Assembly (NCBI GenBank): GCA_013314735.1
Contig: JABUFD010000002.1
Span: 992,001 to 1,056,000, forward strand
Source of the DNA: Anaerolineae bacterium
GTDB taxonomy: Bacteria; Chloroflexota; Anaerolineae; Anaerolineales; Anaerolineaceae
Direction: 5' to 3'
DNA: 64,000 nt
Below are positions 4,029 to 56,768 of this stretch, piece after piece (position 1 is the stretch's first letter; each line of letters begins with the position of its first letter). Position numbers and translations under genes: made by a program. The notes below the pieces were generated by a model. That model was not told the DNA's origin, searched no databases, and was given only the letters and a program-made list of their open reading frames with translations.

Positions 4029-4061
4029 AACAACGATCAGGCAGTGATTCGCATTAATCAT

Positions 4062-4098
4062 TCGGGCTTCCCTGTTTTCGGGGGAAGCCCGATTTTTT
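4062..4098 (+). terminator. Intrinsic terminator after bglX
   Basis: An 11-bp perfect stem (TCGGGCTTCCC at 4062-4072 pairing with 4082-4092) with a 9-nt loop is followed by TTTTTT. It ends the transporter/glucosidase operon. Confidence 0.9.
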
Positions 4099-24492: not shown

Positions 24493-25709
24493 ACACCGCA
24501 ACATTACGCGCCCTGGCAAGAGCAGAGCGCGAGAGAAGGGAGCGTTACGCAAAGCAAATGGACGAAGCGAAGAAGGTATTGATTGAGTTTATCAAAAAGA
24601 TCGGTGAGGAACACAAAATCCCGGTCCGACAATCGGTTGAAACAGAACTGACCCTGGTGGAAGTAGCCCGGTTTGCCACCCAAATGGCTGACCAGGCCAT
24701 CCGTCAATTGAATCACGCCCTTAAGCAAAATGAGCCATCCCAGGCTCAGAATGAAATTACCCGCTTGCAGCGGGAGATCCAACGCTTGCAAACAGAACTA
24801 ACCGCCGCAAGACTCCATACCCCGACAACCCCGGAGGCAATTCCACCGGAGCAATCCAGGGCCAGAGCGCCCACCCTCACAATCGCCTCCGATAACTCAC
24901 CCGCAGCAGATGAGCCTGTTCCCGATCCACTCCCGGATGGATCGCTGGAAGAACGACTCCTGCACCTGGCAGGATCGGCCCGCACGATTCGGCTGCCAGG
25001 ACTGATTGACATCTGCGCTGAAAAACTAAACCTGCCTCGTCCAGAAATTGAAGCCGGGATTCAATCCCTGGTAACTCGCAAACACCTGGTTGTGATTAAG
25101 CCGATGCCCTCTTTTATCCCAAAATCAGGGGTCCCCATTTCTCCAGCATTTTCGCTGACGCCCCAGGGCGTGAGTGCTTACAACTTGAAATCCAGTTCGC
25201 CGGCGATTCCTGTGGGCGAATGGCTGGCAAATTCGGGTCAATTGTGGCTGGAAGAAGCTCCGCTGCTGGCGCACTTTGTGGAAGAAGTGTTACCGCGTTA
25301 TGGGTACACCTTCAACCGCTACCTGCCTGAAAATGCCATTCTGGACCAGGATGGCGCCGGGCAGCACTTGTTTGTGGCCCATGCGCTGCTTTACCATAAC
25401 GGGGAGCCAGTATTGATCATGTATGCCGGTGATCGGTATGTCAAGGGCGGAGTGGACCAATACTATGATGATTTTTATCAGGCAACAAATGGCAGGATGC
25501 ACTTTGTTTGCTTGTACCCCAAAACAACCCGGCAGCTTGTCAGCGATCTAAACTTTCGGGCATCCCGAAATTCGTCCTCGACTGTTACGCCCCGGATCAC
25601 AAATCTTGACGATGTGCTGGTCTATGAGCAGCGGTTGCAGGCTGGGGAAATCAAGGCTGATGAAAATTCGATCTGGTTCTCTACCTTGAGAAAGGAGCAT
25701 AATCGGTAA
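24480..25709 (+). CDS. Coiled-coil and winged-helix protein paired with a replication-relaxation protein
   Basis: The 409-residue protein has an N-terminal helical/coiled-coil part (1-115), a Pro-rich linker, a winged helix (about 155-240, RTIRLPGLIDICAEKLNLPRPEIEAGIQSLVTRKHLVVI) and a C-terminal alpha/beta domain with HLFVAHALLYHNGEPVLIMYAGDRYVKGG. The last part looks like a degenerate nuclease-type fold but has no sure catalytic set. ATGA-type junction with 25709. Likely works with the next protein in DNA processing; family not recognised. Confidence 0.55.
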   Translation: MDQINTATLRALARAERERRERYAKQMDEAKKVLIEFIKKIGEEHKIPVRQSVETELTLVEVARFATQMADQAIRQLNHALKQNEPSQAQNEITRLQREIQRLQTELTAARLHTPTTPEAIPPEQSRARAPTLTIASDNSPAADEPVPDPLPDGSLEERLLHLAGSARTIRLPGLIDICAEKLNLPRPEIEAGIQSLVTRKHLVVIKPMPSFIPKSGVPISPAFSLTPQGVSAYNLKSSSPAIPVGEWLANSGQLWLEEAPLLAHFVEEVLPRYGYTFNRYLPENAILDQDGAGQHLFVAHALLYHNGEPVLIMYAGDRYVKGGVDQYYDDFYQATNGRMHFVCLYPKTTRQLVSDLNFRASRNSSSTVTPRITNLDDVLVYEQRLQAGEIKADENSIWFSTLRKEHNR

Positions 25710-27268
25710 TGACAACAAAACCCGAATCAGCAGCAGGACAAATCATCCCCTGGCGGTCAATGAAACCGGCAGAAAAAGACCGCGCTATTTTGGAGTTTGT
25801 CGGAATGCAAGGGGTAGCCACTTCTGCACAAGGGCAACAGTGGTTCGGCCTTCGATACGAGAAACCCATCCGAGACCGCATGACTAAAATGTCCAACGGC
25901 AATAATCCTTTGTTAACGCATCGGAATTTGCCGCGCCCCTGGGCGTCGAGGTATCGGGTGTATTCGGCCTTTCTAACGGATGCCGGGGCTGCGGTACTAA
26001 ACGAAATGAATGGCACAACGATCCTGGCCCCAAGCCAGGCTACCCAGGAAAAGAATTTCGTGCATGGATTAGGTATCGTTGATATTGCCATAGCCTTGAA
26101 GCGAATGGGGCTTTCGTGCGACATGGAACGCCGGATGGATATTCCTGATGATGACGATGGTGGGTTTATTCGGCCTGACATACTTTGCCATCTGGATGGT
26201 TCGCATATGCTGATAGAGTTTGAACAAACCAGAAGCGAGCAGAATTTGTCAGAACGTTTGCTTGGTCGGCTGCGCCGGTGGCAGGAAATCTTTACCAGTC
26301 CAGTAATGAGAGATGTACTGCCAGACGTTATTGTTCTCTTTGCTATGAAAGAAAGCGAAGATAGATACACAACTTCAACATGGTCAAAAGTCTTGTACGA
26401 ATTGAGTCAGGAGCTAGGCGGCTCACCGGCTTTTTCGGTCTGGTCTATGTCTATTGCCGATTTCTTGAACAATCCGACGCTGGATTTGCGTCGGTATAAA
26501 CGCCTGATACCATCTCTCTATCCCGACTCGGATGCCCTGGCCGATGAACGCGAGCGTTTCTTTCATGCCCAGGCAGTCAGCGTGCCGACGTTGCCCGGAT
26601 TACAAAAGGCGTGGCAGGCTGCTAGATCGTATCACCTCGACTATCGAGGCCGGTTAACCGAAATGCAATTGACAACATCAGTTCGCAAGGCATTCCTGGA
26701 TTGCTGCGACGACTTGTTCTCAATGGTAATTTCTGGCCCAGAATCAAGCAGGTGGAACAACGGTGGAGTCCCCTGGATTGGTATTGGCGTTTTGCGCTGC
26801 TGGTTTGAGCAGCCATCCATGTCGGACTTCAGATTACGCCTGATCAACGCTTTAGAGAGCTTAAAATCCAGTTACGGGCGTGGCCTTTATTCTGCTGCTG
26901 ATACTTTGGAACGGATGGTAGTATGGGGAACCATCCTGCGCCAGTTTGGTTTTGGGCGCGGCGGCCCGTTGGCATTTTACGCGCAAGTTGGTACTAGCGA
27001 AAAAGATCAAGACAGGCGCAGCGGGTTGATACCGGTGTTTACTATCTCGTCCCCCTGGCCGGGTATTCGTGAGGATCAGGATGCCGCCAATGTGACAGTT
27101 CAGGCATTGACCTGGTTGGTGCAGACGCTAATGGATTATCCCGTCGAACTCGGATTGACCAAAGAAAACAAAAAGGCACTGTCTTCGGTTACGCTAAACA
27201 GTCCCAACCATGCCGGCGATATTGCCTTTCAGGATATAAATAGCGATCCCCCCGTAGAAGAACCCTAA
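25709..27268 (+). CDS. Replication-relaxation (Replic_Relax) family protein
   Basis: The 519-residue protein has an N-terminal winged helix (about 20-105, ending RVYSAFLTDAGAAVL), then HGLGIVDIAIALKRMGLSCDMERRMDI, and the PD-(D/E)xK-like segment FIRPDILCHLDGSHMLIEFEQTRSEQ (about 152-177), followed by a basic helix RLLGRLRRWQEI. This order is that of Replic_Relax proteins of plasmids and conjugative elements, which bind or relax DNA at origins. No classical relaxase (HUH histidines) is seen elsewhere in the window, so this protein may serve that role here. The C-terminal 250 residues are of unknown kind. Confidence 0.65.
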   Translation: MTTKPESAAGQIIPWRSMKPAEKDRAILEFVGMQGVATSAQGQQWFGLRYEKPIRDRMTKMSNGNNPLLTHRNLPRPWASRYRVYSAFLTDAGAAVLNEMNGTTILAPSQATQEKNFVHGLGIVDIAIALKRMGLSCDMERRMDIPDDDDGGFIRPDILCHLDGSHMLIEFEQTRSEQNLSERLLGRLRRWQEIFTSPVMRDVLPDVIVLFAMKESEDRYTTSTWSKVLYELSQELGGSPAFSVWSMSIADFLNNPTLDLRRYKRLIPSLYPDSDALADERERFFHAQAVSVPTLPGLQKAWQAARSYHLDYRGRLTEMQLTTSVRKAFLDCCDDLFSMVISGPESSRWNNGGVPWIGIGVLRCWFEQPSMSDFRLRLINALESLKSSYGRGLYSAADTLERMVVWGTILRQFGFGRGGPLAFYAQVGTSEKDQDRRSGLIPVFTISSPWPGIREDQDAANVTVQALTWLVQTLMDYPVELGLTKENKKALSSVTLNSPNHAGDIAFQDINSDPPVEEP

Positions 27269-33561: not shown

Positions 33562-34932
33562 ATGAAACTCACAAAAATTACCAAACTGCTGATCGCAATC
33601 ACCCTGGTATTGAGCCAGGTGATTGCCTTTACCCCGCCGGCATACGCGCAGGAAGGCACACAAGACCCCTGGGCGAATGTCTTTGATGCAGAGGGCAACC
33701 TGCTGCCAACTGTCGTGGATCTGGGTGAGGTCGAACTGGACCCTTCCCCGGCGTGGTGGCCGCAGGCCGGCGTCCTTGACCTGATTGGCTTCCATCCAAC
33801 GTATCACCAGTACGTCACCGCCAACGGGGATGTGGTGGTCGTTCCCTCGGCCAGCACACTGTTTCTGATGACCTTGAATCCTGAAGCCTCTGGTCTGGTA
33901 AATGCTGAAGGCTACATTGGCAATGGCGTCGGCTCACTAATGATCAACATGATGCTGGCAACGCAGGGCGGGCAAAGCATCCTGGATCGGATGGGCGAGT
34001 TTGGTTACACGGACCCCAATTTGTTTGCGGATGCCGTAATCAGCGGCGAGGTGAATATCTGGTCGTTTGGTGGAACCGATATTCTCAATATGATGCGGGA
34101 GCTTCTCCAGGTCAGCGGTGAAGATTTCATGTTCGCCACCACCTACCTGCTCTACATCCAGGGAACGTGTGCCAATTCACCCACCGGCTGCCCGGCGAAC
34201 CTGTGCGAGATTGCTCCGGTGGCCTGTCAGGACGATGATGGTGATGGACAGATTGACCCAATCCCGTCCTGCCCGAATGCGACGATTACCCCCGGCAGCG
34301 TATCATATTCAGCGCAGAAGTTGGAGCCAAACAACCCGATCCCTGTGGGCCAGGACCCTGGCCGGCGCGGTGTGGACATTGCCTTCCATGTTGAGATTGG
34401 CCCGACGGTGTACGAGTATTACGTCATGATCCCGGTGCTGGAAGATGTTGAGGAATGTTACGTTCCTGACGGCGGTTATGGCGGCACGTTGAACTGCAAG
34501 ACTGACGACGCTCTGCCGGCGAACAATGGATACTGGCGCACCACGCAGGAAATTGTGGACTTTGAGTGCGAGCAGCACATCCTGGCCTATCCTGAACCCA
34601 TCATTGGCGCAACGGCAATGGCGGCACTATCCGAGGGCAGCGAGGAATGGATTACAGGCAACCTGGCGTCCTATTATTACGAGGCCGATGTCTATCAGAA
34701 CTCATACTCGTTGTTCCCGACCTACGGACTTGTTCAGGTCGGCTGCGATGCGAACAATGTTTGCACAGGTGATGGGTCTGCGCTGCGGGTTCCCTTCCGC
34801 GACCCTGGCCTGTATCGTGTGAATTTGAGTGTCCAGACTGGCGGTACACCTGTTACGACCGGGCGCACCATCACCGGTACAGGCACGGACTTTCAGATTT
34901 ACTTGATCTCGGCTCGCGAGATCATGCCTTAG
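33562..34932 (+). CDS. Secreted protein, paralogue of 34956
   Basis: The 456-residue protein has a signal peptide (MKLTKITKLLIAITLVLSQV, cleavage near AYAQ). An acidic Asp-rich stretch (DDDGDGQIDP, about 225) looks like a calcium-binding thrombospondin type-3-like repeat. Several Cys pairs suggest disulfides. The second half shares landmarks with the next protein: an IPVGQDPG/LVAGQDDG segment, a SEEW(I)/SQEWIKEG segment, and DPGLYRVNLSVQTGGTP near the end. No enzyme motif is seen. Probably a surface component of the pilus or transfer machine. Confidence 0.65.
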   Translation: MKLTKITKLLIAITLVLSQVIAFTPPAYAQEGTQDPWANVFDAEGNLLPTVVDLGEVELDPSPAWWPQAGVLDLIGFHPTYHQYVTANGDVVVVPSASTLFLMTLNPEASGLVNAEGYIGNGVGSLMINMMLATQGGQSILDRMGEFGYTDPNLFADAVISGEVNIWSFGGTDILNMMRELLQVSGEDFMFATTYLLYIQGTCANSPTGCPANLCEIAPVACQDDDGDGQIDPIPSCPNATITPGSVSYSAQKLEPNNPIPVGQDPGRRGVDIAFHVEIGPTVYEYYVMIPVLEDVEECYVPDGGYGGTLNCKTDDALPANNGYWRTTQEIVDFECEQHILAYPEPIIGATAMAALSEGSEEWITGNLASYYYEADVYQNSYSLFPTYGLVQVGCDANNVCTGDGSALRVPFRDPGLYRVNLSVQTGGTPVTTGRTITGTGTDFQIYLISAREIMP

Positions 34933-34955
34933 AAAAACAGAAAAAGAGGTGCGGA

Positions 34956-35801
34956 ATGAAAATCAAAACTTTGTTACTCATTGGGCTACTGCTGGTAGTG
35001 GCTGCGTTGTCGCCTCTTACGGCGCAAGCGGCAGCTACTGAGCCAGCAGAAGCAGGGCAGGCTAATGGCTGCCCGCCGTCCGAAGTCAGGTTTGGCCCTT
35101 ATTACGCCAATCCAGCAGTTTATTTTCTTGAACAATACCCTGACAAGCCGCTTGTTGCGGGGCAGGATGATGGGGTGGGCGTGTCGGGCGTGATTTCAAT
35201 CCACGTTGGCGGCGTAACCGTCAAGTCATACACCGCCGAAGATGTGTACGCAGAAGCGGCGGGCTGCTACTGTGACCACGAATCCTGCGTTGATGAGCCA
35301 GCCGGCAACGGTGGGGCTGAATGCTTTGACGAAAATCATATGGGCGGGCATTGGTACACCGCCGGCCAGCTTATCGGGCATAACTGTACGGCGAAATACA
35401 CGGACTACACTGACCGGGTTACGAGTGTCGGTGTATGGGCGCGCATGACGCCCGAAAGCCAGGAATGGATCAAAGAAGGTCTATCTGTGCGATACCCCGA
35501 AGCGAATGTGCGCCAACTCTCATACGATGTTATGCCTTACAGCACCCTGACATCGTTTGACTGTAATGGGGCCTACGGGACAACTTGCAGCCTGTACTAC
35601 AACGTGAACGGCTTGCAAATCTTTGACCCAGGCCAGTACCGGATCACCTACACCATCACGACAATGGGCACTCCGGCGACCTTGCCGCGCACGTTGATTG
35701 GCACCGCCGTAATTGCCGTTCCCCCCAGCGAACAGTCCTGGTTTGGGCCAGCGCTCCGAGATTATTTTGAAGTGTATGTGTTGAGCTTGTCTGGTCGTTA
35801 G
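34956..35801 (+). CDS. Secreted protein, paralogue of 33562
   Basis: The 281-residue protein has a signal peptide (MKIKTLLLIGLLLVVAALSP, cleavage near AQAA). It lacks the N-terminal half of its neighbour but shares its C-terminal landmarks (LVAGQDDGVGV, SQEWIKEG, DPGQYRITYTITTMGTPATLPRT). A Cys-rich loop (CYCDHESC) is specific to it. AAAGAGGTGCGG precedes ATG 34956. Function unknown. Confidence 0.65.
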   Translation: MKIKTLLLIGLLLVVAALSPLTAQAAATEPAEAGQANGCPPSEVRFGPYYANPAVYFLEQYPDKPLVAGQDDGVGVSGVISIHVGGVTVKSYTAEDVYAEAAGCYCDHESCVDEPAGNGGAECFDENHMGGHWYTAGQLIGHNCTAKYTDYTDRVTSVGVWARMTPESQEWIKEGLSVRYPEANVRQLSYDVMPYSTLTSFDCNGAYGTTCSLYYNVNGLQIFDPGQYRITYTITTMGTPATLPRTLIGTAVIAVPPSEQSWFGPALRDYFEVYVLSLSGR

Positions 35802-35811
35802 TTGATTTACA

Positions 35812-35863
35812 GGGGCGGGGCGCGGGTGCGCCATTGACGCAGGTTCGAGTCCTGGCCGCCCTA
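35812..35863 (+). ncRNA. 51-nt minimal tRNA-like element
   Basis: A 7-bp acceptor-like stem (GGGGCGG 35812-35818 with CCGCCCT 35856-35862, one G-U), one 5-bp hairpin GGCGC-GGGT-GCGCC (35819-35832) in place of the D and anticodon arms, and a T arm with loop TTCGAGT matching the TTCRANY rule (35839-35855, outermost pair G-G). There is no anticodon arm and no encoded CCA, so it cannot be a normal tRNA. It immediately precedes the large RNA region. Confidence 0.5.
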
Positions 35864-35889
35864 TTCCGAACATTAAAAGCCAAATAGTC

Positions 35890-37105
35890 ATTTATCCCTC
35901 CCCTGTCCGTGCCGCGCCTTTGGCGTTAGGCGCAGAGAGTGGTCGTACAGGTGGTACTGTATATCCAACCCTATTGACGGCAGGGAGGGGATTTTGAAGT
36001 GTGAATAGCTGATTGGCGATTTGGAACATCTCACAAAAGCCGGAAGGCCGAGCATCAGGTAAATTACCAGGACTCCACGTTAGGAGTTGCTTGCTGATGG
36101 TGACACCAGCTTACGGGATCGCAACCTGGACACGCAAAGGGAAACTTCCGCGAGATTGTCCGCTATGTCGCAGTCAGTTATTTATCGGCCCAAGCCACCC
36201 GGTCTTTTATGACAGAGGGGGCCGTCGGCTGATAGAAAAAAGTGCCGGTTGGCGAACCAGTCAGGCCCATGCGCAGGGCTGACTTGGGACGCCATTCTGG
36301 ATGTCGGCGTGGGAGAGACACGCTAGGCTGATCAGGTAACGCGGTCGAAGGCCGTCCACTTCCTGTGCGGTTACGGTGCAGGAAGCAAACAGACGCCCCT
36401 TTAGGGCGAGACGGAAGCCAGGATGATCCTGGACATTCAGAACAAGGAGGCCAGCCCTTGAAAAATAGCTGGCGGTTGGCGGTAAAGACGGCCCTTGACA
36501 TGGGCCTAAAGCCTCAAATAAACCGCACAAAGGGAGACTCCTATCCAGAATGAGCCAACGGTTGCATCGGTCAGGATGCGATAACCGGAGCAGAGATAGG
36601 GCGTATGAAGTCCCCATACCGGCTGATAACCAGGCCGGGCAAGGAGCAGCGTTGAAAAGGTCCTGATGCAAAACGTGAAAGCAAGACACACGAAGCATAA
36701 AACAACGCGCCGGATAGTGTAACCGGCAAGCACAGCACCAGCGGAGGTAACTCTTGTCCTGGTCGCCATCGGACGCCGGATTGACAAAAGGCGTGACAGG
36801 TTGCCGAGAGAGGCAAGGCGTATAGCACCGGCCAAACCGGGTGCCGGCGGGTGGATAAGACACCATGCAGACGCTTTGCTGGAAACAGGCGTGACTTTGG
36901 CGGTTTCAGAGAAAACCGCCCGCTTGGGAGCGCCAGGCGGGAGCAAGCCACCTCACCTTGCTTGAAGGATCGTTTCCTTTCGCTCCCCCAGGAGGCGACT
37001 CCATCTGGAAGGGCTAACTTCTGAAATAGGGCAGATTCCAGGCCAAACGTCAGCGGTCCCAGGTTGAAATCCTGGCAAGGCGTGACTGATCGGAGAGACG
37101 ATCGC
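35890..37105 (+). ncRNA. Very large structured noncoding RNA candidate (about 1.2 kb)
   Basis: No credible gene covers 35802-37140. By eye I find more than fifteen hairpins: GCGCC/GGCGC (near 35924), CATCAG/CTGATG enclosing GACTCC/GGAGT (36050-36097), CTTCCTG/CAGGAAG (36359-36385), GCCC/GGGC (36395-36408), CCAGGA/TCCTGG (36418-36432), CCAGC/GCTGG (36451-36472), GGCCC/GGGCC (36490-36506), GCCGG/CCGGC (36709-36728), TTGCC/GGCAA (36798-36813), GCACCGG/CCGGGTGC (36826-36844), GGCGGTTT/AAACCGCC (36899-36920), GGGAGCG/CGCTCCC around two nested hairpins (36926-36988), and CCAGG/CCTGG (37059-37075). A long-range pair ATCCCTCCC with GGGAGGGGAT (about 35894 and 35985) closes the 5' domain. Size and element setting resemble GOLLD/ROOL-class RNAs, but I cannot confirm membership. 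Confidence 0.6.
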
Positions 37106-37140
37106 TAATCCTCAAATTGAAAGGAGAAAATCAAATTCAA

Positions 37141-37392
37141 ATGACTAAACGAGTGAAAAGGAATATCTGTCCCAAGTGTGGGAAGCAGGGTGGAATGCAG
37201 GTGCGCAGCCTAACAAGTGAATATAACGGCGGTCGTCGGCAAAAGCGGTATCGGATTGTATGTGAGTGCGCCCCGCGTGGTTTGATTGGCGTTCTATCGG
37301 CCACCAAGCGGGACGCCTGGCGGTATTGGCGGGTAAAGGCAAGTCCGTCAGGACGCGATTTGTCACTGGATAATCGCCGGCAAATCGCATGA
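37141..37392 (+). CDS. Small zinc-ribbon protein
   Basis: The 83-residue basic protein has CPKCGKQGG (about 10-18) and CECA (about 45-48), a zinc ribbon. AAAGGAG lies 16 bases before ATG 37141. It overlaps the amidase start by 4 bases (ATGA). Nucleic-acid binding is likely; exact role unknown. Confidence 0.65.
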   Translation: MTKRVKRNICPKCGKQGGMQVRSLTSEYNGGRRQKRYRIVCECAPRGLIGVLSATKRDAWRYWRVKASPSGRDLSLDNRRQIA

Positions 37393-38348
37393 CTCCGCGC
37401 GCCTACCAGCTTGTGATTATCGGGCTGCTATCAGCCCTGGTTACACAAATCGCCCTGCTTTATGTCCCGGCAGACCGGCTCTACGATGTCCCCCGACCGG
37501 CGGGAGTGGTGTATGCGCAGGTCATTTCAGTCCAGGTCAGCAGCACTCCGCCTCCTAATCCGCAGCCGTCGCCAACACCTTCCCTTACGCCCACGCCGGC
37601 GGTAGAAAACCTGCCGACGCCCATACCAACCATGCAACCTGAATCCACGCCCACCCCGGCGATGGATCTGCTGGCGCAATGCCGGCGCATAGATGCGTTG
37701 AGTGAATATGATCGCGTCCGCGCCTTATCCGAATTGACCTGGCAGCCAGATTACCAGGGAGCGGTAGTGATCCCATCCTGCAACCTGATTGCCGGCAACG
37801 AACCGAAGGCGGTCGTGCTGCACTATACCGGCGGGAGTCTATCAGGAGCGACAAACCGATTCCAGTCACCTGACGAAGCCTCGGCGCACTACGTTGTGGA
37901 CCGGGATGGAACGGTGTATCAGCTGGTCCCGGAGCGGTACGGCGCATACCACGTCAACTGTTACAGTAAACGCAGCTTTTGTCTGGAAACCTGCCCGATC
38001 TGCGAGGATGAAGAAGGCCGGTTTGTGGAGCCGTATGTGCAAAGCATCGGGATAGAGATTGTGAACTGGGGGCCGGTGGACGAGAATGCTGAATTTGCCG
38101 GCCCATTGTACGAGGACTACCAGATGGCCTTTGGGCATCGGTACTGGGAAGAATACACCCCGGAGCAGATAGCGGCGGTCAAAGCGCTGGTCGAGGACAT
38201 CTGTGCCCGGTGGGGCATCCCGCTGGATGCGGAGCATGTGATTGGTCATTCGCTGATCAATCGAAAAACCGATCCAGGGCCGGCGCTGAACCTGTTTTGG
38301 AATCGGTACGGAGTGCCGGCGCGTGAAGCGATCTGGCCGCAGCCGTAG
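37389..38348 (+). CDS. N-acetylmuramoyl-L-alanine amidase (Amidase_2), membrane-anchored
   Basis: The 319-residue protein has an N-terminal anchor (about 7-27), a Pro/Thr-rich linker (PTPSLTPTPAV..., about 55-95) and an Amidase_2/AmpD-type zinc domain: AVVLHYTGGS with the first His, SAHYVVDRDGTVYQLVPE with the second, HVIGHSLINRKTDPGPAL with the third His plus the Lys/Asp. It cuts the amide between muramic acid and peptide. In transfer systems such enzymes open the cell wall for the pilus or DNA channel. Confidence 0.88.
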   Translation: MTPRAYQLVIIGLLSALVTQIALLYVPADRLYDVPRPAGVVYAQVISVQVSSTPPPNPQPSPTPSLTPTPAVENLPTPIPTMQPESTPTPAMDLLAQCRRIDALSEYDRVRALSELTWQPDYQGAVVIPSCNLIAGNEPKAVVLHYTGGSLSGATNRFQSPDEASAHYVVDRDGTVYQLVPERYGAYHVNCYSKRSFCLETCPICEDEEGRFVEPYVQSIGIEIVNWGPVDENAEFAGPLYEDYQMAFGHRYWEEYTPEQIAAVKALVEDICARWGIPLDAEHVIGHSLINRKTDPGPALNLFWNRYGVPAREAIWPQP

Positions 38349-38398
38349 CAAGATTTTTTGAGAAAACTAGTAGTTTGTTTTGAAAGAAGGAAAGAAAT

Positions 38399-38800
38399 AT
38401 GAAAACTTTGAAAACACGGTTATTTGGACTACTCATCATTGCGCTGCTGCTGGCCGGCTGCACTGGCTGGCAGGTGCGAACAGAGACGCCAACCCCTGTA
38501 CCAGAGGGGACGGAAGTGGTCATAAAGCATGGCGAGCCATACAAATTTGATGGCTTGCCATACGGATTTGATGTCAAACTCACGCTGGAATCCAGCCTTG
38601 ATTGCGCCTCCGAGAAAACCGAAGTCATGCTTACATTGTTTACTTCGAACAAATCAGGAATGATAATGTCAGGCACCTCGGTATGTGTCGTGCCTGGGTC
38701 GGTAGTGACCATACCTGAGTATTCGATCAAGGTGCTTGCTATTGACGAAACGGAAAGCACGCTGACGCTGGAAATCGCCAACCAGGGAACAGACAGGTGA
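38399..38800 (+). CDS. Lipoprotein
   Basis: The 133-residue protein has a lipoprotein signal with lipobox LLLAGC (Cys about residue 21) and a beta-rich domain of about 100 residues. GAAAGAAGG precedes ATG 38399. Fold family unknown; a surface accessory protein of the system. Confidence 0.7.
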   Translation: MKTLKTRLFGLLIIALLLAGCTGWQVRTETPTPVPEGTEVVIKHGEPYKFDGLPYGFDVKLTLESSLDCASEKTEVMLTLFTSNKSGMIMSGTSVCVVPGSVVTIPEYSIKVLAIDETESTLTLEIANQGTDR

Positions 38801-39222
38801 TCAAGCGATTGAGGGCAGCAGTCCACACAGTTTTCGAAAGCGCCAATCTTGGTCTGTTGGGTGCATTTGGTCTTGTGTTGATTGTGATCTCAATCCTCGG
38901 TTACACCAGCAGAACGCATCACCGTCCGTCTTTTGTCATGCTAGGAGCCATTGGTATTCTTATACCGATCCTGATACTCGACTTTGTGGTAAACAGAAAA
39001 AAGGAATTGAAGAGAGGAGAAAAAGTGAAACCTGAATTTGAGTCTGATAAGCCTACGCGCCGAAAAGCGACCATCATCCTCACCATCATCGTTTTCTTGG
39101 CCTTTATGTGCGCATCCGTAACCGCCTTTATTCTCATTTGGAACGTAGTGACCTCTCTCATGGCCGGCGCAAGCCCGGCGGGGTTGTGGGGTCTGTCTTT
39201 GCTGGCAGAGGTGGTGTCGTGA
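38797..39222 (+). CDS. Three-segment membrane protein
   Basis: The 141-residue protein has membrane segments at about 18-36, 46-64 and 92-118. GTG 38797 overlaps the stop of the lipoprotein gene (GTGA). No family recognised. Confidence 0.6.
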   Translation: MIKRLRAAVHTVFESANLGLLGAFGLVLIVISILGYTSRTHHRPSFVMLGAIGILIPILILDFVVNRKKELKRGEKVKPEFESDKPTRRKATIILTIIVFLAFMCASVTAFILIWNVVTSLMAGASPAGLWGLSLLAEVVS

Positions 39223-39437
39223 GCGGCGGGGGTGGTCAATCAGGCGACAAGCTGATTATTGCCGTTGTGCTTGTCCTGATACTGATTGGCTGCTGCATTT
39301 GTGGTGCGGCGGTATGGATCAGCACCGGTCACTTGACATTCGAGGACATCAGCAGCCTGCTTGGAATGGCCGTCGTGGGCTTTCTGCTCCTGCTTATGTT
39401 TGGGCTGGCATTTATCAACCCCAAATGGCTGCTTTAG
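39219..39437 (+). CDS. Small two-segment membrane protein
   Basis: The 72-residue protein MSGGGGQSGDKLIIAVVLV... has hydrophobic segments at about 11-32 and 46-66. GTG 39219 overlaps the previous stop (GTGA), so translation is coupled. Function unknown. Confidence 0.55.
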   Translation: MSGGGGQSGDKLIIAVVLVLILIGCCICGAAVWISTGHLTFEDISSLLGMAVVGFLLLLMFGLAFINPKWLL

Positions 39438-39446
39438 GAACGGATT

Positions 39447-39845
39447 ATGTTAGTTGGTGAGAAAATCAAACGCATTCGCCAACAGGCGGGTTTGAGCCAG
39501 GCGCAGATAGCCCAATTCCTGGGCATTGATCCGGGTGTCGTGGCTGAATACGAAAACGGGCAGCGCCCGATTCCGGTGCATCACCTGGAACGATTTGGCA
39601 GCCTGTTTGGACTGCGCCTGGCCGACCTGGTGCTGGTGGATGATACCAGTGAGGAATCGTGGGATTTGAAGCCGCGAAGCAGGATTGCACTCCCGACTGG
39701 CATTGACGGGGGTGATCTGTCCGGCATTGCCGATGTCGGCAGGATTGCACTAAACCTGGATGAGATGGCGGGGTTGGATCGAAAGCTAAAAACTAAAGCA
39801 CCAGCACCCACTCAAGGTACAAAACATGCTATAATTAATTCGTAA
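39447..39845 (+). CDS. XRE-family helix-turn-helix regulator
   Basis: The 132-residue protein has an N-terminal HTH (about 3-60, IKRIRQQAGLSQAQIAQFLGIDPGVVAEYENGQR). The tail is disordered. Its last codons (HAIINS) overlap the extended -10 of leader copy 2, so the next operon's promoter lies in this gene's end. It may control the surface/transfer operons. Confidence 0.8.
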   Translation: MLVGEKIKRIRQQAGLSQAQIAQFLGIDPGVVAEYENGQRPIPVHHLERFGSLFGLRLADLVLVDDTSEESWDLKPRSRIALPTGIDGGDLSGIADVGRIALNLDEMAGLDRKLKTKAPAPTQGTKHAIINS

Positions 39846-39976
39846 GTACAACTGAAAAAAGCCACCAATAAGCCGGCGAGTGCCGGCGCAGCAAGACCTA
39901 TTTAGAACACCAATCGGCCATACATTCGCAGTCGTTATGGATTAAGACGGCTAATGTATGGCCGTTTTTCGTTTTA
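39821..39976 (+). promoter_or_regulatory. Repeated promoter-attenuator leader, copy 2
   Basis: ATGCTATAAT (TATAAT 39830-39835), AGTACAACTGAAAAA, hairpin GCCGGC-GAGT-GCCGGC, ACACCAATCGGCC, and a terminator stem CGGCCATACATT (39915-39926) with AATGTATGGCCG (39953-39964) followed by TTTTTCGTTTT. An inner AGTCGT/ACGGCT stem continues it. Nearly identical to copy 3. It controls the operon that begins at 40007. Confidence 0.8.
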
Positions 39977-40006
39977 ACCTCCCGGAAAGGAGCCGGGCAA
40001 GCCCTA

Positions 40007-40750
40007 ATGGAAGAATTATCAACCCTGACCAATGTTCTTGTAGATGCGCTGATCTACCTTGCCAACGGCGGGCTGCTGCTGGTTTACCTGCTGGCGAGCA
40101 ACCTGCCGGCGATAGTAAGCCTGGCATCAGCAGGCTTTGTCTTTCTGGTCATGGACAGTGAAGTGCAGCGTCGGGCTGGCTTTCGGCCACAGCGCGGCGG
40201 CCCGATGGGGCAGCCTGGCTTGCCGGAACGTCGGAGCGTGCTGGCGCAGGCAATGGACAACGAAGGTTCAGCCGGAGCGCAGCCGCGCACAGCGCAGATT
40301 CTGACCGGGATTGTCTTTGCCCTGTGGATGATCGCCCAAACCGGGATGGCAGCGCCGGTTCCCTGGATTGGAGCGGCCATGTGGCTGGTGGGCGTCATTG
40401 TCCTGCTGGTCATGCCGAATCATCAACGGTTCAATCAGCTTTGGTTTGTGAAAACCGGCCTGGCGGTGTACGCCCTGCTGGTGATTGGCAGCCGAATCTA
40501 CCTGGCGTATGCCACGCAGCTATCCCCGGAACAGTGGGCCGGCATCATTGGCACCGCAGAAAGCGCAGCTGCGATTATTGCCAACACCAAAGGCAACGTT
40601 ACCACGATCATCCTGTGGGCGTTGTGGCTGGTAGCCCCTCTGGGGTACTTCTCGCTGCTGGTGCAGCAGTTATTTGTCAACCCGATGAACCTGGTCAGCC
40701 CGCTGGCCGGCGCGCAGGATGTCCTGAAGCGGATTCGAGAACGTGTGTAA
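40007..40750 (+). CDS. Polytopic membrane protein
   Basis: The 247-residue protein has about five to six membrane segments (about 18-48, 102-120, 122-138, 150-168, 200-230) with a basic loop between the first and second. The length and profile recall small VirB6/TrbL-like channel proteins, though no motif confirms this. AAAGGAG lies ahead of ATG 40007, after the attenuator. Confidence 0.6.
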   Translation: MEELSTLTNVLVDALIYLANGGLLLVYLLASNLPAIVSLASAGFVFLVMDSEVQRRAGFRPQRGGPMGQPGLPERRSVLAQAMDNEGSAGAQPRTAQILTGIVFALWMIAQTGMAAPVPWIGAAMWLVGVIVLLVMPNHQRFNQLWFVKTGLAVYALLVIGSRIYLAYATQLSPEQWAGIIGTAESAAAIIANTKGNVTTIILWALWLVAPLGYFSLLVQQLFVNPMNLVSPLAGAQDVLKRIRERV

Positions 40751-40766
40751 CTGAACTTTTACAACC

Positions 40767-40936
40767 GCCCTTGTGGATGATGGTAAGGCAGGTTCGACTC
40801 CTGCCGGGGCATTTTATATCTGACCTGAATCTCCCCTAACAGCGCATCGGATCGGACCTGAACTGATACGAGTAGCAACAGGAGTTCGGCAGATACATAA
40901 AGTTGGAATGCCTGGTTTCTGCAAAGAACACCGGGC
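40767..40936 (+). other. Structured intergenic RNA with second T-arm-like motif
   Basis: In the 40751-41042 gap, GCAGG-TTCGACT-CCTGC (40788-40804) is a perfect T arm with a canonical loop, and GCCC (40767-40770) can pair with GGGC (40807-40810) as a short acceptor. Further on, an 11-bp stem with one bulge is capped by GCAA, a GNRA loop (40910-40936). No gene is seen. It may be a leader of the 41043 gene or a small RNA. Confidence 0.4.
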
Positions 40937-41042
40937 GAAATAAGCAAGAAAACAATTTTTTCAATCCTCAACAAGTGATCGAAGGGAAAGGCGGCCAGAA
41001 GCGCAAGCGCCCGGAGGTCAAAACAAATCACAAGGAGAAAAA

Positions 41043-41427: not shown

Positions 41428-41510
41428 CGTCACCCCCATGCGGGGTGGCGCAGGGGGGCGGCTCACGACCTGAATACCTCCTCACAGGAAAGTGGACCTT
41501 CCCCCTGCGC
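41428..41510 (+). promoter_or_regulatory. Structured leader of the VirB4-like ATPase gene
   Basis: CGTCACCCC (41428-41436) pairs with GGGGTGGCG (41442-41450), and GCGCAGGGGG (41448-41457) pairs perfectly with CCCCCTGCGC (41501-41510). The two stems share three bases, so they compete at their edge. Could be a 5' regulatory structure; no terminator tail is seen. Confidence 0.45.
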
Positions 41511-41545
41511 TACCCGGCGCGAAAGAAATAAGGAGTTTTGAACCA

Positions 41546-44500
41546 ATGGTAATTGCAGCACTCAAAGACATTCGAATACCCTGGCTGACTGAAAAGACTG
41601 GAAAGAAGTCAAATCAGTCGTTGATTCCGGATGACCTGCAACTGATGGACAACGGGATCGCCTTCAACGAAGCCAACGACACACTGGATTATCTCTGGTA
41701 CGCCGTCGAAGAAAAGGATAACGGGCGGGTGTATCGCGGTTTTCGGGTGGTGCGGCTGCTGGAACTGAAATTCATCCCTCTGGATGCCCGCGCTGATGCC
41801 GGCCTTTTACAGAAGATGAAATCCGTTCTGCGCTCATTGTACGGAGCAAAGGTATCGTTTGTGTACCTGACTGCCGGCATCTTCACCGATCCTGCGGTGG
41901 GCATCATCCAATGCTACGGTGTCTCGGTATTTGCAAAAGACCTGGAAGAAGCTGCCAAACTTTCGGCGAACGCCCTGAGCGCATTGAAATCAGCCATGAC
42001 CGGTGCGTTCCGGCAGATGAAATTATCCCCCCTGACTCCTGAAACCGGCCAGTGGATTTTTGGCGCAATGGCTGACATGAAACACGCCCTGGTTGTCGTA
42101 GGGCAGCCAGATCCGCGCGAGAACGCCAAAGGCGGCAGCCAGGCATTATTCAACAATCCCCTGACCACTGGAAACAGCGCTGCGCAGCAGTACAGCTTGC
42201 AGCAGAACGAAATCCTGTTTCGCGGCATGAGTACGCTGAAAGAGGACTTTCTATTCCTGGTAATGACTTCCCCGATTGCCCTGTCCGACATCAGCGAAAT
42301 GCTGATCGGCCTGGCCGAGAGTACCAGCACCTGGGCCTCCTGGCAGAATGGTGTGCGGGGAGCCTCGTTTGGGATCAGCCTGCCGGCGATATTGAGCGGC
42401 GCACTGATGCAGTCCTCGGCGCAGGGCTTTGGGGAGAGCGAAGGCACATCGCATACAGACGGCACAGCACACTCGACTGGCGTGGCCCATACGGAAGGCG
42501 AGGCGCATACTGAGGGGTCTGCGTACACCGTAGGCCGTACTCACTCGGTTGGCGAGTCCACAACTGTCACCAGCGGCGTAGCCACTTCTGAAATTCATTC
42601 CGTTTCAGAAGGCGAGGCCCATTCTGAAAGCAGCGGGGTTTCGGACGGTACCATGTCCTCCAGCGGCACCAGCGGGAGCCATACACAGTCCAGCGGTCAG
42701 TCAGATAACGTTGGCGTTGGTGTGAATGCCGGCGCTAACCTGGGTGTGAATGCAGTCGCCCAGGGCGGCGTCAGTGTTGGCGGCAGCGGTAGTTACTCAC
42801 ACGGCTGGACCGAGGGTGTGGCTGATTCATCTGGCTGGATGCAGTCATCGGGATCATCCCATACCGAAAGCAGCGGGGTTTCGGACACCACGTCCCGGTC
42901 TGAAACGCACGCCACCGGCACCACCCGTTCAAATTCGGTGTCGCACGGCACCAGTGAAACCTGGGGAACGTCTGAAGCTGCCACCAGCAGCCAATCGGAC
43001 ACCACCAGCAAATCGGATACGACCAGTGAATCGGATACGGTATCCTCGTCCGATGGCACAACGAAGGGTTCCTCCGTCAGCCAGATGGTTGGTCGGGGAG
43101 CCTCATCGGGACTGGCCGTTGGTGTTGCGCCGTCTTTCTCGCTGAACCAATCCTATCAATGGCAGTTTGATCCGGCCATCCTGGTGACCCAAATCCTGCG
43201 TGTCCAACAGCGGCTGCTGGAAGGTGCGAGCAAGGAAGGCGCGTTCTACGCTGACGCCTACGCTTTTACCCGCACCCCGCAGGGCAAACAGGCCATGATG
43301 GGCCTGATCCCGGAAGCGTTTCACGGCACCGAGGATGTTGTCACTGGCGTCCAAACCCGTGACCTGACGGAAGCAGAAGAACGGTACATCCTCAATCACG
43401 CCGGCGCATTTTCACCATCCAGCCGGGTTGAGACGATCCCAGAAGTAATGAGTGGCTACATGGACTCGACCCTGCTGACGCTCTTGCAGGTGTCGGCCTA
43501 CACCGCACCGGGCATGTTTGAAATGGGCACAGCCGTAACGGTGCAGGAAAGCACTCCCGATTTTGCGTTTTACCCGAACATGTCGGGTGAAGTCGTGCTG
43601 GCAAAACAGTGGGCCAGCGAACTGGCTGAGATTACCCCCATGCCCTTGCGTCTTTCGCTTGAACGGCACTTTCATACTGTATTTTGCGGCGATACCGGTT
43701 TTGGAAAAAGCGTCAGTGCGGAGCGATTGGCATATGAAACCACGCTCAAATGGCACTACCGCACGATCATCCTGGACTTTGGTCAGGGTTGGCGGCGGGC
43801 GATGAACTGGGCCGGCCTGGAAGGGCGGGTGGATGTGCGCCAGGTATTTCCTGGGGCGCAGCGTCCGCTGCGTTGGAACATCTTGCAAGTGCCGAAGCGC
43901 ATGGACCCTGGCCGCTACCGCTCAATGGTGGCTGAACTGCTGGCAAACGCCGGGCGCATGGGACCCCGGCAGTTGGGCTTTTTACGGCGGGCGATCACCG
44001 AAGTGTATCAGGACTGCGGCGTTGTCTCCTGCCCAAACAAGCCAGGCTTTCAGGTGATCCAGAACCAGGCCGAAATTGATGCAATTCAAACCCGGCGGGC
44101 AGAATACAACCATCCCCCGGCGTCCATCACCGTTGGAACATTGCTCACGGGTCTGGAACCGATTGACCTGCAAGCCCTGTATGTGGAGCGCAGCAAGAAG
44201 GCCAGCTTTGCCGAAGTTGTGCGCCGGCTGCGGAAGGCACAGGACGCCCTGGGCAAGAACGATCAAACCTCCCGCACCAGCCTGGAAGGGCTGCTGCTGC
44301 GGGTTGAAACCTTTGAAGAAGGCGAAATGGCCCGGCAGTACGGCCCTGGACCGGACAGCCTGCCGATTGAGGATTTGGGACTGCTTGGCCCGGCTGATGA
44401 TCCCTGGGGCATGGTCGTGATTGAAGGCGGCGCTGAAATGAGCGACGAGTTTGCCAAAAGCGCCATCTTGAGCCTGCTGGCGAGCGTCCTCTATTTTGAT

Positions 44501-45010
44501 GCCGTATCCCGCCGGCGGGAAAGCCTGACCGGGTTGAAATTCCCCCCAATGCAGATTTTCTTTGAGGAAGCGAACAAAATCCTGGCCGGCGTATCGTCTG
44601 GCGGTGCAGCCTCTGATCAGCCCAATTCAACCGGTGGAAGCGTCAGTGAAATCTTCCAAACCATGTGGCGGGACGGGCGCAAATACCGCATCTTCCTGCA
44701 CCTGATGGCGCAAACCATCAGCGAACTGCCGGAGGGAATCGTATCCTCCTGCAACAACATCTTTGTCGTGCAAACCAAGAATGCCAAAGACCGGGATATG
44801 GTCATGGCGCATATTGGCCGGAGCGAGAAGGGCTTTGTGAACACGGAATATAAGCGGTATCTGGCGCGTATTCCAATCAAGATGGCGGTGGTCAAACTCG
44901 GCTACTCCGATGATGTCACCCAACTGGAACCCATGCTGGTCAATCCCCTGTATGTCCCCGGCAGCGAGCCGGACGACAGCGAGATTGTTCGCCGCCTGGG
45001 AGCGAAGTAA
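41546..45010 (+). CDS. VirB4/HerA-like transfer ATPase with long Ser-rich insert
   Basis: The 1154-residue protein has a VirB4-like N-terminal domain (1 to about 290), a Ser/Gly/Thr/His-rich low-complexity insert (about 300-530, many HTEG, SGVSDT and SSG units), and a C-terminal RecA-fold motor with Walker A GDTGFGKS at residues 715-722 and Walker B IFFEEANK at about 1004-1011. LMAQTISELPEGIVSSCNNIFVVQTKN is the typical motif 3/sensor region of VirB4/TraC/HerA ATPases. AGGAG at 41531 sets ATG 41546. It would power transfer or pilus assembly. It stands directly before the Tad genes, which is not the usual type IV secretion context. Confidence 0.82.
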   Translation: MVIAALKDIRIPWLTEKTGKKSNQSLIPDDLQLMDNGIAFNEANDTLDYLWYAVEEKDNGRVYRGFRVVRLLELKFIPLDARADAGLLQKMKSVLRSLYGAKVSFVYLTAGIFTDPAVGIIQCYGVSVFAKDLEEAAKLSANALSALKSAMTGAFRQMKLSPLTPETGQWIFGAMADMKHALVVVGQPDPRENAKGGSQALFNNPLTTGNSAAQQYSLQQNEILFRGMSTLKEDFLFLVMTSPIALSDISEMLIGLAESTSTWASWQNGVRGASFGISLPAILSGALMQSSAQGFGESEGTSHTDGTAHSTGVAHTEGEAHTEGSAYTVGRTHSVGESTTVTSGVATSEIHSVSEGEAHSESSGVSDGTMSSSGTSGSHTQSSGQSDNVGVGVNAGANLGVNAVAQGGVSVGGSGSYSHGWTEGVADSSGWMQSSGSSHTESSGVSDTTSRSETHATGTTRSNSVSHGTSETWGTSEAATSSQSDTTSKSDTTSESDTVSSSDGTTKGSSVSQMVGRGASSGLAVGVAPSFSLNQSYQWQFDPAILVTQILRVQQRLLEGASKEGAFYADAYAFTRTPQGKQAMMGLIPEAFHGTEDVVTGVQTRDLTEAEERYILNHAGAFSPSSRVETIPEVMSGYMDSTLLTLLQVSAYTAPGMFEMGTAVTVQESTPDFAFYPNMSGEVVLAKQWASELAEITPMPLRLSLERHFHTVFCGDTGFGKSVSAERLAYETTLKWHYRTIILDFGQGWRRAMNWAGLEGRVDVRQVFPGAQRPLRWNILQVPKRMDPGRYRSMVAELLANAGRMGPRQLGFLRRAITEVYQDCGVVSCPNKPGFQVIQNQAEIDAIQTRRAEYNHPPASITVGTLLTGLEPIDLQALYVERSKKASFAEVVRRLRKAQDALGKNDQTSRTSLEGLLLRVETFEEGEMARQYGPGPDSLPIEDLGLLGPADDPWGMVVIEGGAEMSDEFAKSAILSLLASVLYFDAVSRRRESLTGLKFPPMQIFFEEANKILAGVSSGGAASDQPNSTGGSVSEIFQTMWRDGRKYRIFLHLMAQTISELPEGIVSSCNNIFVVQTKNAKDRDMVMAHIGRSEKGFVNTEYKRYLARIPIKMAVVKLGYSDDVTQLEPMLVNPLYVPGSEPDDSEIVRRLGAK

Positions 45011-45033
45011 CAAGCAGAAAAGAAGAAAAGGAC

Positions 45034-45282
45034 ATGATTCAATCACTCATCTTACTTCCTGTATTCATCGCCCTGCTGCCGGCCTTTATAGGCGTCTGGG
45101 TGGCAGCGGTCCTGCTCAACCGGCGCGGAAAGAAAAAGTGGGTTTTGGGACTGGGCATTGTTGGCGGTATTCTGGGGCTGGTTATCCTGTTCCTGGGACT
45201 GCTGGCCCTGCTGCCCGTCCTGCCGGCGGTCGAGCCAGAAATGTTCCCGACACCGAATTTTGACTTGATCCCAACAATATAA
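45034..45282 (+). CDS. Small two-segment membrane protein
   Basis: The 82-residue protein has membrane segments at about 4-28 and 36-65. The long ATPase gene ends 23 bases upstream. Function unknown. Confidence 0.55.
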   Translation: MIQSLILLPVFIALLPAFIGVWVAAVLLNRRGKKKWVLGLGIVGGILGLVILFLGLLALLPVLPAVEPEMFPTPNFDLIPTI

Positions 45283-45311
45283 GATGACAGGCGAAAGCAG
45301 CCCTGTTATTT

Positions 45312-45370
45312 GCCGCAGAAACGCCGTTCAGGGGTTTTGCCAATCCCTGAAATGCGGCGTTTCGCGCGGC
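45312..45370 (+). other. Three-tier hairpin in leader of cpaB
   Basis: GCCGC/GCGGC (45312-45316, 45366-45370), GAAACGCCG/CGGCGTTTC (45318-45326, 45355-45363) and CAGGG/CCCTG (45329-45333, 45345-45349) nest in one arm. There is no T tail, and it lies 150 bases before cpaB; possibly an mRNA stabiliser or leader. A 36-codon frame from 45406 has a poorly spaced ribosome site and is not called. Confidence 0.45.
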
Positions 45371-45522
45371 TTGCCTGCGATTCAAGGAGGCAACTGGCAT
45401 CCATCATGAGTGTGATATTGGCGCGATCAGGCGCATTGAGCGCAAACAACGTTATTCAGCCAGTTAGAAAAAGCTGGCAAACAAAACCAATCTTCAGAAT
45501 CAGAAAAGGAGTTTGAAAAAAT

Positions 45523-52795: not shown

Positions 52796-52807
52796 GAGGG
52801 AAGCAAA

Positions 52808-53101
52808 ATGAATAACCGAATGATGGCGAATCAATTTTTACTGCTGGCCCTGGTGCTGGCATTGACAATCGTACAACCTCTGCCGCTGAAAGCCTTTTTG
52901 GTAATTGTTCTGGCCGTGATCGCGGTGCTGTTCAACCTGCGGGGCATGGAAATCTCTGGCCTGGCGCTGGCTGCCGGCAGCCTGGGCATTCTGTTGAGCT
53001 TCTATGAGCCGAAGTTTATTGTGTTGGTGATCTATGTACTGGTGATCATCGGCGGCGGGTTTAGTCTGCTGGGCATACCTGACAAAAAGCGTGAAAATTA
53101 A
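52808..53101 (+). CDS. Small membrane protein
   Basis: The 97-residue protein has three to four membrane segments (about 7-25, 27-43, 46-63, 68-88). GGAGGGAAGC precedes ATG 52808. It ends the TadC operon before a promoter-like TATAAT at 53138-53143. Function unknown. Confidence 0.6.
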   Translation: MNNRMMANQFLLLALVLALTIVQPLPLKAFLVIVLAVIAVLFNLRGMEISGLALAAGSLGILLSFYEPKFIVLVIYVLVIIGGGFSLLGIPDKKREN

Positions 53102-53190
53102 GTGTGAAAGTATTAACGCGTAAAGGCGAGCCTGTTATATAATAAGTATTCGGAGTTATAGTTTGAAGCGAAAGCAAGAAACGGGTCAAA

Positions 53191-56610: not shown

Positions 56611-56768
56611 GAGAATATGCTATAATTAATTCGTAAGCACAACTGAAAAAAGCCACCAATAAGCCGGCGAGCGCCGGCGCAGCAAGACCTATTTAGAACA
56701 CCAATCGGCCATACATTCGCAGTCGTTATAGATTAAGACGGCTAATGTATGGCCGTTTTTCGTTTTAA
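56611..56768 (+). promoter_or_regulatory. Repeated promoter-attenuator leader, copy 3
   Basis: Almost identical to copy 2 over about 150 bases: ATGCTATAAT (TATAAT 56621-56626), ACAACTGAAAAA, GCCGGC-GAGC-GCCGGC, ACACCAATCGGCC, terminator stem 56706-56717 with 56744-56755, then TTTTTCGTTTT. Differences fall mostly in loops (GAGT/GAGC, TATGG/TATAG). It precedes the large adhesin gene. Confidence 0.8.

Follow-up and report, generated by a model that had tools for sequence, protein, structure and literature searches.

The window, by which we mean the whole 64,000-nt stretch of DNA analyzed (G000:C11:992001-1056000), comes from a 4.1-Mb genome and is part of a replicating, secretion-gene-bearing mobile element of Anaerolineae (Chloroflexota), with a putative leader lying in a co-directional run of genes. 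As read from the ORF list, + strand genes extend from ~13 to 63 kb and encode primase-like, O-like replication initiator and DnaB-like helicase proteins, ParA-like, RecD2-like and amidase proteins, and pilus or secretion proteins that are CpaB-, ParA- and T2SSE-like and, weakly, T2SSF-like. The 1172-aa protein encoded at 41492-45010 had no Pfam match; to our eye it resembles VirB4/TraC. It has homologues in 40 of the 301 genomes of the order, its own included, and, in another search, in 31 genome contigs, with none in viral contigs; most of the hosts named for elements that carry one belong to Anaerolineae (Bellilinea, Levilinea, Leptolinea, Flexilinea and MAGs). A 92% identical copy of this protein at locus L032 led to the relative G666, whose counterpart of the RNA described below is G666:C32:196800-197359 (locus L083).

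Among the tblastn loci, p33562 lies within ~0.7 kb of p40007 wherever both genes occur, so the block 34956-39845, RNA included, seems to be confined to the lineage that the window shares with G666. For the same reason p34956, which with p33562 forms a tandem pair of proteins at 33562-35801 (~24-27% identical to each other by tblastn), looks like a duplicate brought in with the RNA block. At L032 1491-8190, several kb of genes that the window lacks lie between the homologues of an HTH gene and p40007; they read as an HNH protein, methyltransferases and a large ATPase-like protein, perhaps a defence island. Two more gene-free gaps interrupt the same run in the window, at 45011-45522 (512 nt) and 52796-53190 (395 nt).

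The region of interest separates the upstream ORF (34956-35801) from the next ATG by 1,339 nt, or somewhat less if the possible TTG start at 37117 is used; the original prediction of a gene-free stretch of about 1.2 kb was thus right, and the true gap is longer. The region is present as a single copy in its own genome, and blastn found no homologues in phages, plasmids, two genomes of the genus or 400 genomes of the phylum apart from the window itself. Against L083, the sole close homologue, it has indels of 1, 2, 5, 6, 7 and 111 nt, so that no reading frame is conserved between the two; a conserved frame was what the original prediction had named as counter-evidence. That the region is coding in an unrecognized way, as a short or frameshifted gene, is highly improbable: − strand ORFs of up to 201 aa exist (36261-36866), but the indels of 1, 2, 5, 7 and 111 nt argue against such a gene. 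The 83-aa protein encoded after the RNA had no Pfam or PHROGs match (searched from 37135), and its gene is absent from G666, also by tblastn. No sigma-70-like promoter was found in 35700-37300, and + strand genes continue far on both sides of the RNA, so that a place at the head of an operon is not evident. The features of the locus are collected in the table.

Table. Features of the non-coding region and its surroundings (positions in the window)
Feature	Position	Strand	Basis
Whole non-coding region (composite leader-type RNA)	35802-37140	+	Gene gap, no Rfam match, indels relative to L083
tRNA-like structure (TLS)	35812-35862	+	Fold, alignment with L083, T-arm scan
5′ hairpin domain	35890-36003	+	Kept in L083 6880-6986; model R1; column identity 88% on average (A4)
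Middle structured domain	36004-36305	+	Conserved in L083; model R2 spans 36052-36243
111-nt window-only segment	36317-36427	+	Missing in relative; inside hairpin loop
72-nt block	36428-36499	+	98.6% identical to relative in a 75-79% background
Phage/mobile-element module	36649-36728	+	Model R3, 53.2 bits; blastn and pattern occurrences elsewhere
Second T-arm-like hairpin, CCAGG-TTGAAAT-CCTGG	37059-37075	+	Repeat D6; fold z −0.5; degenerate loop
Small hairpin, GATCG-GAGAGA-CGATC	37088-37103	+	Fold; 37 nt before next ATG
First gene after RNA	37141-37392	+	Encodes 83 aa; zinc-ribbon look (CPKCGKQG type)
Possible intrinsic terminator (hairpin + T-run)	39945-39975	+	Before gene 40007

A cmscan of the whole window with all 4227 families of Rfam 15 gave no match at the gathering threshold, and 35700-37300 at E ≤ 5 gave three chance snoRNA or viral matches only. 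The original prediction had named GOLLD, ROOL, OLE, HEARO and group I/II introns as the families to be compared; Rfam includes group I and group II intron models. The GOLLD, ROOL and OLE models matched neither the window at gathering nor 35700-37300 at E ≤ 5, and HEARO (RF02033) and both intron groups likewise had no match in the window. With no known Rfam family matched, a new RNA family, as suggested earlier, is a fair reading of the region. Folding z-scores on the + strand averaged −1.72 in 11 200-nt windows inside the region and −0.73 in 53 flanking ones (p = 0.003), with the same shift on the − strand (−1.22 inside, −0.27 in the flanks); some coding windows folded lower, with z down to −4.7. 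The 646-nt 5′ part and the 636-nt 3′ part had z-scores of −2.4 and −2.1 (20 shuffles each, none as stable). The dense hairpins of the original prediction are thus real as structure relative to the flanks, but their density is moderate and both strands are shifted; the long-range closing pairs were seen, but in single-sequence folds only. We conclude that on this mobile element a tRNA-like motif is accompanied by a structured, non-coding RNA that falls outside Rfam. The small hairpin shortly before the next gene has a 25-nt, 92% match ahead of another gene of the relative (G666:C32:194476, E 0.03).

The TLS at the 5′ end consists of a 7-bp acceptor (GGGGCGG/CCGCCCT), a 5-bp hairpin (GGCGC-GGGT-GCGCC) and a T-arm (CAGG-TTCGAGT-CCTG). 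In the window the fold has an MFE frequency of 0.64 and a z-score of −0.9; the copy at L083 6801-6851 takes a matching form in its MFE fold, with wobble changes, at a frequency of 0.03 and a z-score of +0.7, and its T-arm is absent from the centroid. Because neither copy is more stable than shuffles, the case for the TLS rests on form and conservation. ARAGORN found no tRNA or tmRNA genes in the window, and tRNA and tmRNA families of Rfam matched neither the window nor 35700-37300, so a tRNA-array reading was rejected. The tRNA-like motif of the original prediction is therefore real in form, but it lies outside the interval 35890-37105 assigned to the RNA and is not a tRNA to ARAGORN. A further T-arm (GCAGG-TTCGACT-CCTGC) follows p40007 at 40788-40804 and has counterparts in L032, L050 and, one pair shorter, L015. 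Within 40751-41042, this T-arm is followed by a leader that L032 and L050 share and that precedes the next gene; this is possibly a second RNA of the same kind.

Identity between the window and L083 was 79% over 35813-36305 and 98.6% over 36428-36499; the latter near-identity looks as if the block had been co-converted or were under strong constraint. Directly after this block, the relative carries a HEARO RNA (L083 7361-7589; RF02033, 138.7 bits), then a 428-aa ORF that reads as IscB-like, and then the amidase gene. HEARO and the IscB-like ORF (L083 7361-8917) occupy the place of the 3′ half of the relative's RNA; window positions 36500-37388 have no counterpart there, the module having gone with the whole 3′ half.

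The L083 sequence folds strongly: for a 508-nt stretch, with 12 nt of HEARO and a perfect hairpin of 17 bp in it, z was −8.0, with 0/100 shuffles as stable. Conservation of the middle domain is exemplified by GCTGATG-gtga-CACCAGC versus GCCGGTG-gtga-CATCGGC. RNAalifold on the window/L083 pair gave 98 pairs, six of them with compensatory changes. When folds of either single sequence were used instead, the numbers of kept and compensatory pairs stayed within what permutation gives (six compensatory pairs against 3.2, p ~ 0.09, two sequences). A structured 5′ domain is therefore plausible but short of proof. Model R2, run on 396 genomes of the class, matched seven at E ≤ 0.5: its own, five at ≤15.3 bits, and one at 27.3 bits that lies inside a TPR-like gene and was rejected. 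Also set aside were an extra R1 match at window position 25926, inside an ORF (25709-27268); two contigs from a string scan with the 72-nt block, which share only 20 identical nt in coding-looking DNA; and short blast matches inside ORFs (L087, L089) or in a palindromic terminator-like stretch (L088). Viral pattern scans for 5′-domain strings gave no match.

The more interesting content of the region is the module, an 80-nt element in its 3′ half that links the region to phages of unrelated bacteria. It comprises a 6-bp stem I (36649-36654/36703-36708), whose sequence varies between sites, and, directly abutting it, hairpin II (36709-36727), GCCGG-ATAGTGTAA-CCGGC (also written GCCGG-AUAGUGUAA-CCGGC). 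The window thus has the variable stem I and the hairpin II with nine-nt loop A-N-R-G-N-GUAA by which the module family (R3) is defined. Other loci were linked to it by blastn and pattern searches and then by the R3 model. A short blast match to G666:C50 (E 0.005) led to L086, where a T-arm (CAGGTTCGAATCCTG) is followed ~110 nt on by GCCGGATAGTGTAACCGGC, identical to window 36709-36727. Pattern scans of IMG/VR returned eight contigs, with 18 for a C-loop variant and 21 for an AGAG variant; these matches lie partly inside long ORFs, and genomic context is the evidence. Matches in long ORFs were treated as chance (among them L107, L109, L110, L111, L119, L150, L154, L156, L158, L161 and L170). 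A 33-nt query of phages gave only two 17-nt matches, inside tape-measure genes, and the L114 leader found nothing in the E. coli genome.

The 15 sites behind model R3 comprise that of the window and one nearly identical to the site in Pectobacterium phage ZF40, among others, so that the scores of the window and ZF40 (53.2 and 57.4 bits) are largely by construction. The viral contig L100, outside the model, has two copies (39.7 and 30.4 bits). At E ≤ 0.05, R3 matched 14 of 147 host-family genomes, nine of them convincingly on reading: in the model are G000, G105 with two sites, and G1046, whose coordinates show it to be G666 once more, and outside it are G1076, G658, G1051, G1015, G578 and G1066; the matches in G575, G1018, G177, G548 and G484 were judged chance. 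In 301 phylum genomes at E ≤ 0.001 only the model members G000 and G105 were found, with 15 candidates scored per listed genome, so that misses are likely. When 24 module loci were compared with Rfam, L099 gave tRNAs and L127 a Proteo-phage-1 RNA away from the module, with nothing else at gathering; E ≤ 2 added a single chance microRNA match. Judged from listings, no paper was recognized as describing the motif.

Ten stem I rows, picked for showing a perfect 6-bp stem, had 60 of 60 pairs canonical with all six positions varying; permutation of the same rows gave a mean of 46.4, and none of 20,000 permutations did as well. Left out of the ten were L137, L139 and L140 (perfect stems of the same type as L138/L148), L112 (the L148 site), L105 (as L101), L098 (bulged), both L100 sites (4-5 bp), the GTCGT/GCGAC phage group (L114, L115, L120, L123 and the like), L133, L099, L104, L113, L116, L118, L121, L125-L127, L129 and L130, the sites judged coding and all AGAG-variant scan sites. 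The strand just 5′ of hairpin II often pairs with an upstream strand. Unpicked tests were weaker: 7/25 non-redundant sites scored at least 6 as against 16% of random positions (rank test p = 0.003), and 7/21 did so in a later scan as against 15%, one of them inside a 1894-codon frame. In L143, hairpin II is CCCGG...CCGGG, so covariation extends there too. The covariation that the original prediction looked for is thus present for stem I of the module, at chosen sites, but not significantly for the 5′ domain, where two sequences were compared.

Hairpin II keeps company with T-arms and tRNAs. It lies 108-130 nt after a T-arm in L086, L101/L105, L106, L138 and L098, and shortly after tRNA or tRNA-like genes in L099, L155, L160 and L163. 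The order is the other way round in L125, L141 and ZF40, where a tRNA or tRNA-like hairpin comes after it, and upstream T-arms are lacking in L123, L137, L139, L140 and others. Of all 37 sites, 12 show a T-arm between −700 and +250 nt, as against 16% of control windows, a proportion inflated by the same T-arms. In ZF40, the RNA (L132 ~3407-4085) follows cI and precedes gp08 and the exonuclease; gp09 (L132 3615-3938), a small annotated ORF, splits this leader RNA, and the two parts are continuous in L123. L114, where the HTH protein is of repressor type and the exonuclease belongs to phrog_2489, is arranged like ZF40, and L122 appears on reading to be so as well; L120 has an HTH gene upstream, and L123 an exonuclease downstream with other genes upstream. 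In SEN5 the match falls between the gene for tail completion and baseplate gene V and is overlapped by a small ORF annotated on the opposite strand. Elsewhere, what follows the module, in some cases after intervening small ORFs, is RecE (L129), a RecT-like gene (L101), a replication initiator (L137, L138) or an integrase (L139); in L140 the module itself lies downstream of a polymerase/exonuclease-like gene. L116, upstream of terminase, was dropped when the motif was found to read on as the start of an ORF. Most of these leaders are much shorter than that of the window; its nearest analogue is L100, where a 1.14-kb non-coding stretch holds both module copies and a T-arm with a partly matching acceptor.

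Terminators are few downstream of the module: within 600 nt, a strict one was found at 4 of 37 sites, one being weak and two coming from related phages, and a longer-loop hairpin with T-run in ZF40 (~L132 4143-4193 on our own reading) falls outside that strict count. In the window, an identical 31-nt hairpin and T-run occurs at 39945-39975 and 56736-56766, 17 kb apart and each near a gene start. The T-run at 39945-39975 lies inside the open frame ATG GCC GTT TTT CGT TTT, which makes this terminator ambiguous; the pair may be a terminator or a repeated start region (frame MAVFRF). In L032 the MAVFRF frame (window 39958-40161) reads on into p40007, and in the window it is out of frame with p40007 (start 40007), by a frameshift or through a different start.

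RNA-based processive antiterminators are few; one account names put (HK022), EAR, canT (Tn916) and, acting with a protein, conAn2 (pLS20), each serving its own operon (PMC11658703). canT is cis-acting and processive, most likely an RNA, and a predicted complex structure of 452 nt (PMC11658703). Like the window RNA, it is a long untranslated region of predicted structure on a mobile element, upstream of transfer or secretion genes; this likeness is one of description, not of sequence, and its function has been shown by experiment, whereas ours is inferred. No TLS is mentioned for canT in the sections of that account considered here (PMC11658703). The put sites of HK022, described as ~70-80 nt with two adjacent helices (PMC9378689, in part), resemble the module in architecture only, with no claim of membership, and the ZF40 module has an early-operon leader position similar to that of the put/nut leaders described there (PMC9378689). 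The sequence and loops differ, however, and R3 had no match in HK022 at E ≤ 1. HK022 putL and putR lack the module, so identity with HK022-type put was rejected by sequence. GOLLD and ROOL, whose profiles, like that of OLE, come from Rfam (PMC12286853, in part), are also large phage or prophage RNAs near tRNAs; the window RNA differs in having no Rfam match, a TLS instead of a tRNA island, and mosaic halves. HEARO (omega RNA) with IscB sits at the same site in the relative, as an insertion, and has no match in the window.

We tentatively favor, at less than even probability, a composite leader RNA pieced together from modules, in which the 80-nt module would make RNA polymerase terminator-resistant. 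tRNA-processing enzymes may cut the TLS and so separate the leader from upstream mRNA; the module, emerging from RNA polymerase, would bind the enzyme, which would then resist pausing and termination, and the untranslated RNA and downstream genes would thereby be expressed, as with put, canT, EAR and conAn2. Processive antitermination is suggested by the phage position as in ZF40, the two-helix form and the canT precedent. The mechanism is held at this tentative level because of the HK022 mismatch, the few terminators, the ambiguous terminators of the window, the lack of an evident promoter and the loss of the module in the relative. Counting against antitermination, too, are the lack of the module in putL and putR, the sites with no upstream T-arm and the non-significant covariation of the 5′ domain; moreover, the position of the module shortly before a start codon in several elements also fits translational control.

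Another view is that the module and the TLS form a 5′ UTR element for RNA processing or for translation of the next gene, with no part in termination. On our own reading, a few tens of nt separate the module from a likely ribosome-binding site and start in L086, L101, L102, L106, L120, L138 and L140, and the T-arm excess over the inflated control fits such a role. In the window, though, the module ends 412 nt before the next ATG, and in L125, L141 and ZF40 it is followed by a tRNA or a tRNA-like hairpin, so translation of the adjacent gene cannot be the common role; we consider this view unlikely. Somewhat unlikely, too, is a mosaic of mobile-element debris (a tRNA fragment and insertion remnants), with only the 80-nt module, or nothing, functional. 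The HEARO/IscB-like insertion in place of the relative's 3′ half, the 111 nt that the relative lacks and the modest folding z-scores speak for debris. Neither R2 in 396 genomes of the class nor blastn in 400 of the phylum turned up another copy of the 5′ domain, thin evidence, as the relative was missing from these draws too. On the other hand, the 5′ domain is kept with long identical blocks and folds at z −8.0 in the relative, and the module keeps its stem and loop.

A reading close to the original prediction, that of a discrete, trans-acting giant RNA of ~1.2-1.3 kb which works in the manner of GOLLD or ROOL, possibly forms an RNA cage and has the TLS for its neighboring tRNA, is supported by the length, the mobile-element setting and the TLS at the 5′ end, and by the comparable 1.14-kb non-coding stretch of L100 with a T-arm inside. 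It is not borne out as a single RNA: the relative shares only the 5′ half (35813-36305 and 36428-36499), the halves being inherited separately, and the best conserved part, the module, sits elsewhere mostly in shorter leaders. Nor does any Rfam family match at E ≤ 5 beyond the three chance matches, and the 3′ region described as universally conserved in GOLLD (PMC12286853, in part) is here the half missing from the relative. We regard this reading as quite unlikely.

It is a tentative possibility, still well below an even chance, that RNAs of this kind form a new, widespread class of antiterminator-type leaders, defined by a covarying stem I on a GCCGG-ANRGNGUAA-CCGGC hairpin, often linked to a TLS or tRNA, and common to mobile elements of Anaerolineae and phages such as ZF40; the window would then hold an unusually long version, with the module embedded in a 1.3-kb RNA. 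If this is true, a motif of 80 nt that recurs in Enterobacterales phages and Chloroflexota elements, and that Rfam 15 did not match in the loci compared, would be a signal for expressing their operons, and would account for part of the unannotated structured RNA that lies beside phage tRNAs.
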